A stretch of DNA of 21,708 nt from a virus, in IMG/VR virus record IMGVR_UViG_3300017746_000197, positions 1-21,708 of that record; one strand, given 5' to 3'. Position 1 is the first letter of the stretch. Each line of letters begins with the position of its first letter. Below are positions 2,372 to 7,189 of the stretch, one piece after another. Position numbers and translations under genes: made by a program. The notes under the pieces were generated by a model. That model worked only from the letters and a program-made list of their open reading frames with translations. It did no database searches and was not told the origin of the DNA.

Positions 2372-2378
2372 TAATTAG
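2364..2378. repeat. A-centred AT palindrome over the nuclease stop codon
   Basis: CTAATTA-A-TAATTAG, 7-base arms around a single A, overlapping the TAA stop at 2369-2371. Two more palindromes of the same design (single central A) lie at 2749-2769 and 2782-2798. It may be a transcript-end structure or a protein site; no function is shown. Confidence 0.4.
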
Positions 2379-2651
2379 TTAACTACATAAGCATAGCCGT
2401 AATCAATGCTCGGCTCTCCTCGAGGATGCAGTAACCCTGCTGACGGATTTGGAGTAGTGTGTTATACACAACAATACCGAGAAGGCAATCGTCATGGTAG
2501 CGAACCTTCAATGAGTCTATATCTATTTTGATTTGATGATATAGAACATGCGTTGCTGAGATATTATGTTTATTAATATAATAGGCTCAACTACAACCCA
2601 GTAAACTTTACAGAGCAACCGGTAGCGATTAATTATAGTAACGTAGTTAGT

Positions 2652-2684
2652 CGGGGATAATCAACATGGATTGACGGGGATAAT
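2652..2684 (+). repeat. Direct repeat CGGGGATAAT, two copies
   Basis: Two identical 10-base copies at 2652-2661 and 2675-2684, start to start 23 bases, inside the structured region. The first directly follows the 3' arm of the putative closing helix. TCGG (2651-2654) and CCGA (2690-2693) could pair around both copies. Such a pair could be RNA structural modules or protein-binding sites. Confidence 0.5.
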
Positions 2685-2698
2685 GAGAACCGAAAATT

Positions 2699-2731
2699 GC
2701 TGTGGTAGTGCTTGTCCGGCACTACCATGGC
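2699..2731 (+). terminator. Strong 13-bp hairpin, possible terminator or RNA 3' domain
   Basis: Arms 2699-2711 and 2719-2731 pair over 13 positions (11 Watson-Crick, 2 G-U) around the 7-base loop TTGTCCG. GAAA (2692-2695) and TTTC (2732-2735) can extend the stem across a 3-base bulge. It is the most stable simple hairpin seen in the stretch. The following bases are only briefly T-rich, so it is not a textbook intrinsic terminator and may instead be the 3' stem of the candidate RNA. Confidence 0.5.
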
Positions 2732-2748
2732 TTTCAAAAGATAATAAG

Positions 2749-2769
2749 TCTTAATTAAATTAATTAAGA
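2749..2769. repeat. A-centred AT palindrome, 10-base arms
   Basis: A perfect 21-base palindrome with 10-base arms around a single A (2759), composed almost wholly of A and T. It lies 18 bases after the 13-bp hairpin and could stop or stabilise transcripts arriving from either side of this convergent junction. Confidence 0.5.
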
Positions 2770-2781
2770 ATTTAATATCCT

Positions 2782-2798
2782 TTTTATTAATAATAAAA
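2782..2798. repeat. A-centred AT palindrome, 8-base arms
   Basis: TTTTATTA-A-TAATAAAA, a perfect palindrome. Read on either strand it ends in a short A/T run, so it could act as a weak bidirectional terminator between the convergent operons. Confidence 0.45.
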
Positions 2799-2827
2799 TT
2801 ACGAATGAACGAAGTGAATGAGTAATT

Positions 2828-2848
2828 AAGTTCTCGTAGAGAACTTTT
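2828..2848 (+). terminator. Probable intrinsic terminator of the plus-strand operon
   Basis: AAGTTCTC (2828-2835) pairs perfectly with GAGAACTT (2839-2846) across a 3-base loop GTA, and T residues continue to 2848. The T tract fits plus-strand transcription. It lies about 30 bases from the end of the minus-strand gene, so it would stop read-through into that operon. Confidence 0.55.
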
Positions 2849-2879
2849 AGATGACACCAATAATATCTTATAGTGTTGG

Positions 2880-3107
2880 TTAGAAAAATGGTAATTGAGT
2901 TTCTTTGGTAGTTTCCAGGTTTTTATCTATGAGTGTTCTAAGACCTTCACGTTCTAATTTAGACATGTTAAGTACGTCTTCATAAGTGGCACCTCCTCTC
3001 ATGTACCAAGAATATGAAAGTGCTTGATCTTTGATTCCCTGTGTGTAGTTTTTATACGATTCTATTAGGTCTTTTATCCCGTCAGGGTCCAGTGATAAAA
3101 GCCTTAT
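2880..3107 (-). CDS. Small conserved-looking protein after gp26, possibly gp51-like
   Basis: A minus-strand reading frame, open from an in-frame TGA at 3117-3119 to TAA at 2880-2882. It has no ATG, GTG or TTG near its 5' end. The ATA at 3107-3105 overlaps the gp26 stop in the arrangement ATAA, exactly where an ATGA overlap would be expected; CTG at 3092-3090 is the other option. From ATA the product is 75 residues, with recognisable stretches ALSYSWYMRGG, NMSKLEREGL and a C-terminal KNLETTKETQLPFF. This resembles, from memory, short proteins encoded next to gp26 in marine T4-like phages and sometimes labelled gp51 (baseplate hub assembly); in T4, genes 26 and 51 are neighbours. Its coding nature is supported by protein-like composition and tight spacing; the start codon and exact function are uncertain. 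Confidence 0.6.
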   Translation of the reverse strand: MRLLSLDPDGIKDLIESYKNYTQGIKDQALSYSWYMRGGATYEDVLNMSKLEREGLRTLIDKNLETTKETQLPFF

Positions 3108-3952
3108 GCGAAAAAATCAGTTGCGTTAAGAGTAAATGGCTGAGTGTATTCATGTTCGCATTTTGCACATTTCATATCTAATGATTTGATTGTACTTGCG
3201 GCTCTGAGTTCTCCATTATAATCTCGTATTCCTTCATATGTTTTTGTATCACAGTTTTGTAAGAAATCAATGATATATTCTTTTTCAGTAATTTCTTGAC
3301 CTTCTGGGGCAACAATCTTAGAAATTGCACCAGTTAGTACTTCCATTGTTACAGATGTTATTTCTACTAATGCCTCTTGACTTTTTTCAATACGTTCTTT
3401 TTCATCATCAATAAGATTCATATCCTTATACTTTGCTTGTATTTCAAACTGTCTTAAACTTACAGCATTCATCTCTTTATAATTTATAGGAGAAAAGTAA
3501 ACTGATAGTTCACCGACATTGTAAGGCTTACTGTAATCACCAGCAGTAATAGTTCGCAACAGATTTTGTAAGTTGATTGCGTATGATTCTGTTTCGCCAC
3601 ATTCTTCTTTGGGACAAGTAGATTCTACTTCGATTGCCTCGTCACCAGATGCGGCTTTAATACCAATAAAAATTGCATCGATGTCACAACTTAATACACT
3701 CCAAGGATTTTTAATAGCAGGAATACAACTTTTAATAATCTCTACTGTTGCAGTACCATTAAATAATGCGTCTGGTGTTTTTGTTGTTATTTCATCGATA
3801 GCAGTCATAGGATAAACTGGCAATTCTAAATTGTTTTCATCCTCAAATTCGATATCGTCTGGACCATATCCTTCTCCACCTGACGGCAGGGATATGAACA
3901 CTGCTGGTCTACGAAAGTATTGTCTAAGTGGATTGTTTTTGTTTTCTGTCAT
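3104..3952 (-). CDS. 26: Baseplate protein gp26-like (T4_baseplate family)
   Basis: A 282-residue product taken from the ATG at 3952-3950. An upstream in-frame ATG at 3964 would add MRKK, but those codons contain AGGAAG, an excellent ribosome-binding site 5 bases before the second ATG, so the shorter start is preferred. The segments PLRQYFRRPAVFISLPSGG and GTATVEIIKSCIPAIKNPW and the overall layout match the T4 gp26-type baseplate family (T4 gp26 is about 208 residues). Cysteine pairs in the middle (STCPKEECGE) and near the C-terminus (MKCAKCEH) suggest a bound zinc. gp26 acts in assembly of the baseplate hub and wedge region of the contractile tail. It is transcribed away from the tape-measure-like gene and followed at once by a small gene overlapping its stop. 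Confidence 0.75.
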   Translation of the reverse strand: MTENKNNPLRQYFRRPAVFISLPSGGEGYGPDDIEFEDENNLELPVYPMTAIDEITTKTPDALFNGTATVEIIKSCIPAIKNPWSVLSCDIDAIFIGIKAASGDEAIEVESTCPKEECGETESYAINLQNLLRTITAGDYSKPYNVGELSVYFSPINYKEMNAVSLRQFEIQAKYKDMNLIDDEKERIEKSQEALVEITSVTMEVLTGAISKIVAPEGQEITEKEYIIDFLQNCDTKTYEGIRDYNGELRAASTIKSLDMKCAKCEHEYTQPFTLNATDFFA

Positions 3953-3982
3953 TTTCTTCCTCATATTTTATGGGTATTTTAC

Positions 3983-4057: not shown

Positions 4058-7000
4058 ATGGAAGAATACGACCAAGAACAAATAGAAAGATTGATAAAGT
4101 CATTGGGTCCGTTACCTGATTCTTTTAATAAACTTGCTGACTCAATCAAAAACGCAAATGGCGGTTTAGGCGGTTTAGGTGATAGTGCGAAAGATGCGGC
4201 TAACAGTATGGGCACTTACTCTACTGCGAAGAAAAAAGCGACAGAGGCAGAGCAAAAGCATGTCAGGGCGACTGAAGATAATACTACGCGGTCGAAGGCT
4301 GCCTATGATCAATCGATAGCGGCGTTAAACACTTTAGGCGATGCCTTAACTAATTCTCAACCTTCTTTTGCAGACTTAGGTGGTGTAGCTACAAATGCTG
4401 GCAAAAGTTTAGGTAATTTAGCAGAAAATCTACTTCCGGCGTTCGGTGCCCAGATTAACGTAGCCATCCAACTTTTAGGTGAACTTTCTGCCGCATATCT
4501 TACACAGTTTGCTGAACAAAATGAGTTCGGTGGACAAATGCGTAAGATGGGTGTAACTGTTGCAGAAATGGGTGATGGCACTCGCAACACTACAGATAGT
4601 ATGACAGACTTAGCCAGAGAAGCAGGTTATACTAGTGAAATGTTAAGTAAAATTGCTGGCATGATGGTAAAAAGTAGTGAAGCAGTTGCATTACTAGGCA
4701 CAAACTCTACTGACGGTGCTAAAGCATTCTTAGAATACTCCAATATCTCAAAGACTGAACAAAAACGTTTTGCTAGACTTGGTTACACAATTGAAGATTT
4801 GAATGCAGTTCAAACAAATTACATAGAACTTCAAAGAGCAAGTGGTATTAACACAAAGGCCCAAAATCTTACTGCACGTCAGTTGCAAAAAAGATCACTT
4901 GAGTATGCAAAAAGTTTAACTGCGATATCTGAAATTACTGGTAGGAATGCCGAGCAACAGATAGCCGCAGAACAACAACAGAAAGCAGAATATCGTAATA
5001 AAATAGTCTCAATGAACCAGCAACGTGAGATATCAGCCTTAGAAAGAGAAGCGGCTAATGAAACAAATGCCGCTAGAAAAAAAGAATTAGAAGATAAAGC
5101 CCAGTCAATGAAAGATGAGTTAGGTGCAAGAACTCAAATGACTGGTACCTTGGCAAGAATATTAGGACCTGATCTAGCAGAACAAATTAACACAGTAATG
5201 ATTACTGGTAACTTTGATGAGACAACTACAGCAATCGCACAGTTAGGATTAAATGCTGGCGATCTTGCAACTGCATTTGAAGGTGTTGATCCTGACAAGC
5301 CTGAAGAAGTAATGGCGGCAACACAAAAAATCTTGTCTGATGTTATTTCTGGACAAGAAGATGGTTTAGAAAGATTTGGTGATGCACTCATTAGAATGGG
5401 TGCTGATGCAGAAGGATTTGGTAAATCAGTTGGTCTAAGTGCAGAAAATTTAAATCTGTATCAACAAGCAATGGACTCTGGAGACGAAGATAAAGCGAGA
5501 GAGATATTAAAAACAGCATTAGACAATGTTAATGAAACTACTAAAAGCGGTAAAGATACTCAATTAGATTTCCAAGCAGAGTTAGAAGCCATGGCCAGAT
5601 CAGTCAGAACAGCCTCAGATGGTTTGTTAGACTTTGCTGGTCCAGCAGTATTGGTATTGACTGCTGGAGCAGTCGTAGCCTTAGGAATAGCGGCGGCAAA
5701 AGCGGCTACGTCATTGGCTCTATTAGGTGGTCCTGGTGGCATGAAAGGCATGTTTAAAAATCTTGGTACTAAAGGGGCAAGCCTTGCTACTAGATTAGCA
5801 GGTTCTAATGCGTTTAAAATAGGTGGAGGTGTTGCAACTGGAGCTATAGCGGCATATGGTTCATATGATGAAGGCAAAGATGAAAGACGAGACATTGCAA
5901 ACGATCTTGCAGACGAAAATATAGATCAAGCAGAAGCAGATAGAAGAACCACAGTAACTAATGCTGAAACTACTGGTGAAATGACTGGTAATATGGTCGG
6001 CGCCGTAAGCGGCGCATTTGCAGGTGCTAAAGCTGGAGCAATGCTCGGAGCATTTGGTGGTCCAGTCGGAGTAGCAATTGGTGGAACACTAGGTACTCTT
6101 ATTGGAGCAGGGTTAGGCGCATGGGCAGGTGGAAAAGGTGGATCAGAAGTTGGTGAAAAGATCGGATCTAATATGGGTGCAAGCCTTGAGAAAGATGTTA
6201 GAAAAGCAAATTTAGCCTTAGCAGAGCAAAGTGGTTTTTATGATAAAAAAGGAGCATTCAAAGACAGTACAGTAGACTTTGATAAAGTTAGAGCGGCTCA
6301 AAAAGATAAAACTCTGACGCAAAATACACTTCAATCCATGTTAGAAGATAATGACATGAGTGATGACGATGAAGCAGAAATCACTAAGATTCTAAACCAG
6401 ATGAAAGATGCCAATGAAGGACTTGAAACTGAGAAAACAGTAGCAGATGCTGAACAAGCAGATATCAAAAAAGAATCAGAAGCTGATGAGAAACTAATTG
6501 CAGACCTTGGTTTAGATGGAGATACACAGACAGAGATTGATGATGCAGTAGTTGAAGTGCAAAAAGAAATGGTTACTAAAACAGACTTATTAAAAGATTC
6601 GATTGATAAACAAGCAGAGGCTACTGCAAGACTTATTGTTGCAACAAATGTAGTAGCAGAAATAACTGGTCAGCAAGTACAAATAGAAAAGGCTAAACCA
6701 GAAGAACTTCCTCCAGGAGTTATGCTAGACACATTGACTGGTGAATTTAGATCATATGCATATAAACTTTCTGATACTAAAGAAGGCGGTGGTCTGTATG
6801 CTAAAAACTTTAAAACAGCAGAAGAAGCAGATGCATATCAAAAATCAGACCAATTTGGCCGCGACCCTATAGCCGATGCAAGATTCAAAGCAAAAGAAGC
6901 CGCGGATTTAGCAGAACTAGATGCTGAACTTTTAGCAGAGAGGGGACATGTAATTCCACCACCCCCAGACACTAACAATCTTGTAACAGATCCAGATGCA

Positions 7001-7189
7001 CAAGCATCAGATGAATTGGCACCAGGTACAGAAGATTTGCAGTTGGGTAAATTAGATGAAACACAGATCCTAGCAGAACAACAACTGGCAGAATCAAAAC
7101 TGACCAATCAGAGACTAGGAGAACTACTCTCCAAGCAAACAGAAAGTAATGATCTGTCAGAGAAAATAGTTCAATACTCTTCAGTTTAA
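4058..7189 (+). CDS. Tape-measure-like tail or internal virion protein
   Basis: A 1043-residue protein, the largest complete one in the window. The N-terminal part is polar, helical-looking and rich in Ala, Gln, Glu and Lys, with coiled-coil-like stretches at about residues 290-355. A hydrophobic segment follows at about 525-560 (FAGPAVLVLTAGAVVALGIA), and a glycine-zipper-like segment at about 646-695 in which G or A recurs every few residues. The C-terminus is acidic. Long helical sequence plus membrane-active segments is typical of phage tape measure proteins, which set tail length and enter the cell envelope on DNA injection. Position beside gp26 and before the portal gene also fits a gp29-type role, although T4 gp29 is only about 590 residues. 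No peptidase or lysozyme motif was recognised. An internal structural protein is the alternative. The start has AGGA about 11 bases upstream. The last codons lie in a 32-base tandem duplication. Confidence 0.55.
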   Translation: MEEYDQEQIERLIKSLGPLPDSFNKLADSIKNANGGLGGLGDSAKDAANSMGTYSTAKKKATEAEQKHVRATEDNTTRSKAAYDQSIAALNTLGDALTNSQPSFADLGGVATNAGKSLGNLAENLLPAFGAQINVAIQLLGELSAAYLTQFAEQNEFGGQMRKMGVTVAEMGDGTRNTTDSMTDLAREAGYTSEMLSKIAGMMVKSSEAVALLGTNSTDGAKAFLEYSNISKTEQKRFARLGYTIEDLNAVQTNYIELQRASGINTKAQNLTARQLQKRSLEYAKSLTAISEITGRNAEQQIAAEQQQKAEYRNKIVSMNQQREISALEREAANETNAARKKELEDKAQSMKDELGARTQMTGTLARILGPDLAEQINTVMITGNFDETTTAIAQLGLNAGDLATAFEGVDPDKPEEVMAATQKILSDVISGQEDGLERFGDALIRMGADAEGFGKSVGLSAENLNLYQQAMDSGDEDKAREILKTALDNVNETTKSGKDTQLDFQAELEAMARSVRTASDGLLDFAGPAVLVLTAGAVVALGIAAAKAATSLALLGGPGGMKGMFKNLGTKGASLATRLAGSNAFKIGGGVATGAIAAYGSYDEGKDERRDIANDLADENIDQAEADRRTTVTNAETTGEMTGNMVGAVSGAFAGAKAGAMLGAFGGPVGVAIGGTLGTLIGAGLGAWAGGKGGSEVGEKIGSNMGASLEKDVRKANLALAEQSGFYDKKGAFKDSTVDFDKVRAAQKDKTLTQNTLQSMLEDNDMSDDDEAEITKILNQMKDANEGLETEKTVADAEQADIKKESEADEKLIADLGLDGDTQTEIDDAVVEVQKEMVTKTDLLKDSIDKQAEATARLIVATNVVAEITGQQVQIEKAKPEELPPGVMLDTLTGEFRSYAYKLSDTKEGGGLYAKNFKTAEEADAYQKSDQFGRDPIADARFKAKEAADLAELDAELLAERGHVIPPPPDTNNLVTDPDAQASDELAPGTEDLQLGKLDETQILAEQQLAESKLTNQRLGELLSKQTESNDLSEKIVQYSSV

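Follow-up and report, generated by a model that had tools for sequence, protein, structure and literature searches.

Among the large ornate RNAs in the papers that we found (GOLLD, ROOL and OLE), GOLLD and ROOL are large pseudoknotted RNAs of phages and prophages, of unknown function and often located near tRNA islands (PMC12286853). OLE RNA and the raiA motif (ModT) are described as elaborate bacterial RNAs with highly conserved nucleotides (PMC9723947, PMC11706538). The locus considered here lies in the window, i.e., the whole 21,708-nt stretch of viral DNA that was analysed; these 21.7 kb come from a T4-like phage and encode the gp20 portal, the prohead protease and the gp23 capsid protein. 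A further described system is HEARO, the omega RNA of IscB, which is a structured RNA adjoining a nuclease gene.

The RNA of this locus resembles GOLLD and ROOL in being large, pseudoknotted and phage-encoded, but it has no Rfam match, lacks adjoining tRNAs, remains fixed at one recombination/baseplate junction and, according to pattern scans of species genomes, was not found in bacterial genomes; moreover, it is about half as long as GOLLD. GOLLD, ROOL and OLE differ from it in Rfam model, size and context (PMC12286853). OLE RNA and the raiA motif are bacterial, with another gene context, and the RNA has no Rfam match to either. With HEARO it shares the position next to a nuclease gene, but there is again no Rfam match, the nuclease type varies between phages while the RNA stays, and no variable guide segment was noticed. 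With the group I intron core it shares its size and the presence of pseudoknots, but it does not lie inside a gene, has no Rfam match and, by inspection, shows an unfitting order of helix strands.

Rfam 15 returned no match at gathering score for the window or for 17 relatives, and the GOLLD, ROOL, OLE and HEARO models gave none at E up to 10 (window) or 5 (relatives L060 and L130). Relaxed matches of the window to snoRNA, lncRNA and miRNA families (E 2.6 to 8.9) remained far below the gathering scores and were rejected as chance. The sequence-only reading that preceded this analysis had found no tmRNA, group I intron or hammerhead pattern, and ARAGORN and the search against Rfam that it had proposed, both negative for tmRNA in the window, bear out the absence of known RNAs. 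No tRNA was detected in the window, in 19 loci or in a 264-kb contig; group I and group II introns gave no Rfam match, and both flanking genes end before the RNA. Note that anti-Shine-Dalgarno mimicry (CCUCCUU at helix P2 in many relatives) was also considered and rejected, the motif not being kept in the window or in L137. No description of the RNA was found in the literature, of which our coverage was partial, so that an unpublished or subscription-only description is not excluded. Altogether, this is a new family of large structured non-coding RNA, as none of the known families tested has the same sequence or architecture, and it marks a clade of uncultured T4-like phages, some of which are very large (contigs up to 524 kb). 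It broadly joins the large structured phage RNAs, and its newness is to be understood at the family level.

Gene context of the intergenic locus

The RNA lies between two convergent genes, as follows.

1808-2371, + strand: PDDEXK/RusA-like Holliday junction resolvase, upstream neighbour (PF24608 1.5e-26, phrog_244 2.6e-20)
2391-2731, + strand: structured RNA core, comprising a 5' domain (P1-P3), a junction domain (P4-P9 and two pseudoknots) and a 3' hairpin (P11), from nhmmer and covariation
2880-3964, - strand: T4 baseplate hub protein plus a -1 frame extension, convergent neighbour (PF12322 7.1e-13)

With the resolvase ORF ending at 2371 and the convergent, frame-shifted hub ORF at 2880, exactly 508 bases (2372-2879) of a packed phage genome are free of genes, as had been claimed from the letters alone. 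The high local G+C reported for 2401-2460 was likewise reproduced by direct count (31/60), and the value for 2400-2519 is 0.467. When folded, the gap reached -128.5 kcal/mol (z -3.8), which none of 100 shuffles equalled, so that this possible refutation named at the outset did not materialise; however, the opposite strand folds at z -4.0, and the strand cannot be assigned from energy alone because both strands fold at similar z. Decay of a former gene had also been named as a possible refutation, and no sign of it was seen: the median open stretch measures 66 aa, close to the 62 aa of shuffled sequence.

The hub gene itself occupies 3964-3104 (- strand), and its -1 frame extension ends at 2880. 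At the 3' end of the hub gene (window 3104-3130, - strand) the sequence reads GAT TTT TTC GCA TAA, and the slippery T TTT TTC is present in all 15 of the commonest hub endings (102 loci). The downstream ORF (2880-3116) is in the -1 frame in 115/115 distinct loci, with no ATG, GTG or TTG start near the hub/extension junction in 73 loci. A programmed -1 frameshift yielding a hub fusion protein is likely. Beside the hub gene, positions 4058-7189 encode a 1043-aa protein with weak family matches only (tail associated lysin, phrog_1047, 2e-6), possibly a tape measure protein or a tail lysin. A radical SAM protein is encoded at 774-1790, between an SbcC-like gene and the resolvase.

Covariation and architecture of the RNA

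Covariation was assessed with a G-test and average-product correction in 79 sequences below 92% identity, using as null 40 alignments simulated on the inferred tree. Against this null, 24 top pairs were obtained at E <=0.5, of which 20 are canonical and group into helices, both pseudoknots included. Compensatory changes therefore exceed the phylogenetic null, and the criterion for a conserved structured RNA is met. A model of 52 pairs was also scored on 50 sequences below 80% identity: 95.3% of 2585 cells are paired, versus 30-41% when the partners are slid by 1-3 columns, and double changes occur in 40/52 pairs (445 cells), none of 500 shuffles reaching any of these measures. It should be noted that the helices were partly picked from the covariation of overlapping sequences, so that this scoring describes the model and is no independent test; the test is the analysis against the tree-simulated null. 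The excess of G.U cells (87) over A.C cells (33) indicates the + strand. Comparative sequence evidence thus confirms a conserved structured RNA on this strand, with a core at about 2391-2731, made up of the following elements (all on the + strand).

2395-2399/2411-2415, +: P1 hairpin, covarying in relatives, alignment imperfect
2416-2419/2451-2454, +: P2 (CUCC/GGAG), paired in 78-79/79, a few compensated sequences
2428-2431/2437-2440, +: P2b, inside P2
2458-2462/2466-2470, +: P3 hairpin, many pair types, one pair beating the tree-based null
2476-2479/2620-2623, +: P4 (ACCG/CGGU), closing the junction, invariant in 50/50
2481-2485/2505-2509, +: P5 hairpin, with inner P5b at 2489-2491/2501-2503; 100% of cells paired, double changes in 6/8 pairs
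2511-2523/2538-2549, +: P6 hairpin, 96.5% paired, double changes in 10/11 pairs
2528-2532/2660-2664, +: PKa, P6 loop with the strand after P9; 98.4% paired, 5/5 pairs covarying, 2528-2664 beating all simulated nulls
2552-2557/2614-2619, +: P7 (GUUGCY/RGCAAC), 96% paired, rare compensatory types
2558-2588, +: P8, variable hairpin within P7, 73.5% paired, alignment imperfect, length variable
2597-2599/2654-2656, +: PKb, CCC with the strand after P9; 96.8% paired, 4/4 pairs covarying in relatives, 2597-2656 beating all simulated nulls
2627-2635/2643-2652, +: P9 hairpin, 94% paired, double changes in 9/10 pairs
2703-2711/2719-2727, +: P11 hairpin (UGGUAGUGC/GCACUACCA), conserved across 79 sequences, little covariation, stem extended in the MFE fold

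The core of about 340 nt is organised around a four-helix junction of P4, P5, P6 and P7, tied by the two covarying pseudoknots and carrying about 40 invariant positions. P7 continues directly into P4 (GCAAC-CGGU), P9 comes next, and the strand after P9 pairs first with the CCC inside P7 (PKb) and then with the P6 loop (PKa). P7 is near-invariant with rare compensations (GUUAU/AUAAC in L116, GUUAC/GUAAC in L054), and P4 is conserved but has no covariation to back it. For the 5' domain (P1-P3) and P11 the alignments were simpler, and in L137 P11 is present as a variant hairpin. In close marine relatives (window 2391-2409), the four bases preceding P1 read GCAU or GUAU and are complementary to AUGC or AUAC within the P1 loop, which may amount to a small clade-specific pseudoknot.

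These results bear unevenly on what the sequence-only reading had proposed. Its demand for covariation in aligned homologues is satisfied by the tree-simulated null together with the 52-pair model, and its 3'-side hairpin is real, being the nearly invariant P11. The long-range closing helix that it drew between 2378-2386 and 2643-2651 is unsupported, since the 3' strand belongs to the covarying P9 and the 5' strand is unconserved. As for its general proposal, covariation upholds a structured phage RNA of the large ornate sort, and the choice between regulatory RNA and ribozyme stays undecided.

Distribution and flanking hairpins

Using tblastn with the flanking proteins, 149 loci holding both flanks were collected from IMG/VR, all with a gap of at least 404 nt. 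They yield 72 distinct intergenic sequences, of which 70 measure 404-676 nt and two about 1.2 kb; L036, among the longer gaps, has an additional gene between the RNA and the hub. An nhmmer profile of the relatives (built with the window among its sequences) matches window 2391-2751 at 2e-82, and in the profile search the RNA is on every contig long enough to span the junction, the exceptions among the first 160 loci (L033 and L084) being contigs that stop short of it. In a separate set of 17 loci, obtained via a divergent hub protein, the RNA was found in 15, the other two being short fragments without a match. Most of the loci sharing one 17-base motif carry the whole RNA, on contigs of up to 524 kb. 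Exactly one copy occurs in 17/18 large contigs, and the eighteenth was put down to a motif match by chance, of which that scan gave several more. The synteny is locked, hundreds of related viral fragments carrying the RNA at this one position: it always lies directly 3' of a nuclease gene and on the same strand, with the hub gene convergent to it at every locus where that gene is visible. A riboswitch serving the downstream hub gene, which would need its aptamer directly upstream on the same strand, is at best unlikely given this convergent orientation.

Outside this clade, an exact-pattern scan with the strict motif gave no match across about 85,000 species genomes, although diverged copies could be missed. 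A looser motif, scanned as an exact pattern with the same limit, gave many matches, mostly in GC-rich genomes; among the 80 loci examined there were only chance matches (best 11.7 bits, E 0.32). By major capsid protein (67-69% identity), the nearest cultured phages are Vibrio phage 2.275.O, Sinorhizobium phage Phosso and Pseudomonas phage PA5oct, which share the baseplate hub gene with the RNA-bearing phages; however, in the regions tested, the covariance model did not find the RNA in them, and the corresponding junction of Vibrio phage 2.275.O, between this hub gene and the gene opposite, measures just 27 nt. An unfiltered run of the model on regions of PA5oct, Phosso, SCTP-2 and Atu_ph07 gave only scores of at most 10 bits, and blastn of the RNA regions against named phages and plasmids returned short chance matches only. 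In Phosso, 1,014 nt without annotation (L282; 229759-230772) separate the resolvase start from an RNase HI gene; this gap gives no match to the RNA model but may hold another element.

On both sides, the RNA is accompanied by small hairpins.

2318-2328, + strand: mini-hairpin GAG-ACCAA-CUC, within the 3'-terminal part of the resolvase ORF
2339-2349, + strand: mini-hairpin GAC-ACCAA-GUC, among the final resolvase codons, exact match unique in the window
2797-2802/2822-2827, + strand: terminal hairpin HpA, stem varying with pairing kept across relatives (by inspection)
2828-2846, + strand: terminal hairpin HpB (AAGUUCUC-GUA-GAGAACUU), perfect 6-9 bp stem in 78/78 relatives

An upstream mini-hairpin, with stems of the types GAC/GUC, GAG/CUC, GGC/GCC or GUC/GAC, occurs in 71/77 relatives versus 11.4 expected in shuffles (the loop patterns being chosen post hoc), and the other six have near variants by eye. 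The exact GAC-ACCAA-GUC appears at most once per large contig, in 5/9 tested, and always immediately before the RNA. L156 and L280 lack the resolvase and encode at its position an unrelated 147-aa protein (L280:2653-3096, L156:3356-3799) with matches to phrog_447 (labelled NAD synthetase) and to homing-endonuclease families. Both loci still have the RNA together with the mini-hairpins, which there lie outside coding sequence, so the RNA is not a tail of the resolvase gene, and this suggests that the mini-hairpin element is part of the RNA locus and not of the resolvase. Downstream, HpB, taken in each relative as the best stem found 3' of P11, shows about 20 different stem sequences, with the loop GAA in 46 of the 78, and HpA, when read on the - strand, is followed by a T-rich stretch and perhaps terminates transcription of that strand. 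HpA and HpB may simply end both convergent transcripts. A terminator scan of 2372-2879 found no GC-rich hairpin with a U run; HpA and HpB look like a weak two-way terminator, although they account only for the far 3' part. No conserved promoter was recognised upstream of the RNA, and matches to a T4-type late promoter (TATAAATA) were fewer than chance, with none just upstream.

Possible roles of the RNA

We give roughly even chances to a stable RNA or RNP made during infection and acting in trans; its function is unknown, and neither a transcript nor a protein partner nor a phenotype has been identified. By inference, such an RNA would be transcribed with or just after the upstream recombination-nuclease genes, and its 3' end would be set, by trimming or termination, ahead of the convergent hub gene. 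It would then act in trans as a stable molecule, probably in association with a protein or complex of the phage or the host, and the invariant unpaired segments (e.g., ACUACA and ACUUUACAG) could form its binding or active surface. Against the trans-acting reading, the locked synteny 3' of the nuclease gene is equally expected of a cis-acting 3' element, and the lack of a recognised conserved promoter upstream also counts against it. Such a cis element would be a 3' UTR or end-of-operon structure, lending stability to the recombination-nuclease mRNA and keeping it apart from the convergent hub transcript; this is possible but rather unlikely. The RNA is indeed fixed in place and strand right after the nuclease gene, the mini-hairpins extend into the 3' end of the resolvase ORF, and HpA with HpB resembles a two-way transcription end. 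However, terminators and stabilisers need hairpins only, and not two pseudoknots with about 40 invariant positions; the nearest cultured relative manages with a mere 27 nt at the junction; and the persistence of the RNA when the preceding gene is exchanged for a homing-endonuclease-like protein (L156, L280) argues against a resolvase-specific cis element.

A compact core, two pseudoknots and many invariant unpaired nucleotides are common traits of catalytic RNAs, and a ribozyme of a new kind, e.g., one cutting itself from the nuclease transcript, is conceivable on these grounds. Nevertheless, we consider it improbable, since no Rfam ribozyme family matches, cleavage data are lacking, and the known small self-cleaving classes are smaller than the core of this RNA. 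An RNA linked to an origin, through an R-loop or replication priming as for ColE1 RNA II or the T4 R-loop origins, would fit a place beside recombination genes, and the cumulative GC skew of one 264-kb contig reaches its minimum (at 40 kb) about 5 kb from the RNA; yet this minimum may, as we infer, just reflect a change of gene direction, the contig is possibly incomplete, the offset is 5 kb and a single contig is concerned, which makes this reading very improbable. Cis-acting 3' element, ribozyme and origin-linked RNA thus remain possible, in that order. That GOLLD, ROOL or another large phage RNA already known is met here in variant form can hardly be maintained: the general look is similar (large, pseudoknotted, phage-encoded, function unknown; PMC12286853), but nothing in Rfam beyond chance matches to eukaryotic families was returned at E up to 10 (window) or 5 (L060, L130), no locus tested has a tRNA, and the length is about half that of GOLLD. 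Finally, AT-rich intergenic DNA folds readily and both strands reach z near -4, as chance folding or a decayed gene would have it; this reading is refuted by the covariation, has the universal retention and the shuffle-like open stretches against it as well, and keeps only a negligible probability.

On balance, we regard it as fairly probable that the locus encodes a large structured RNA of a class not described before, possibly catalytic, and that this RNA is universal, single-copy and indispensable in a clade of large T4-like phages that is itself widespread. New RNA classes as large and complex as this one, and as strongly supported by comparison, are seldom met; their predecessors proved to be ribozymes, RNP cores or RNA cages. 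The covariance model makes the new RNA testable, through metatranscriptome searches, transcription and probing. Since the RNA is kept in every examinable phage of the clade and these genomes are dense (about 94% coding in the contig tested, of 264 kb), it is probably important during infection.
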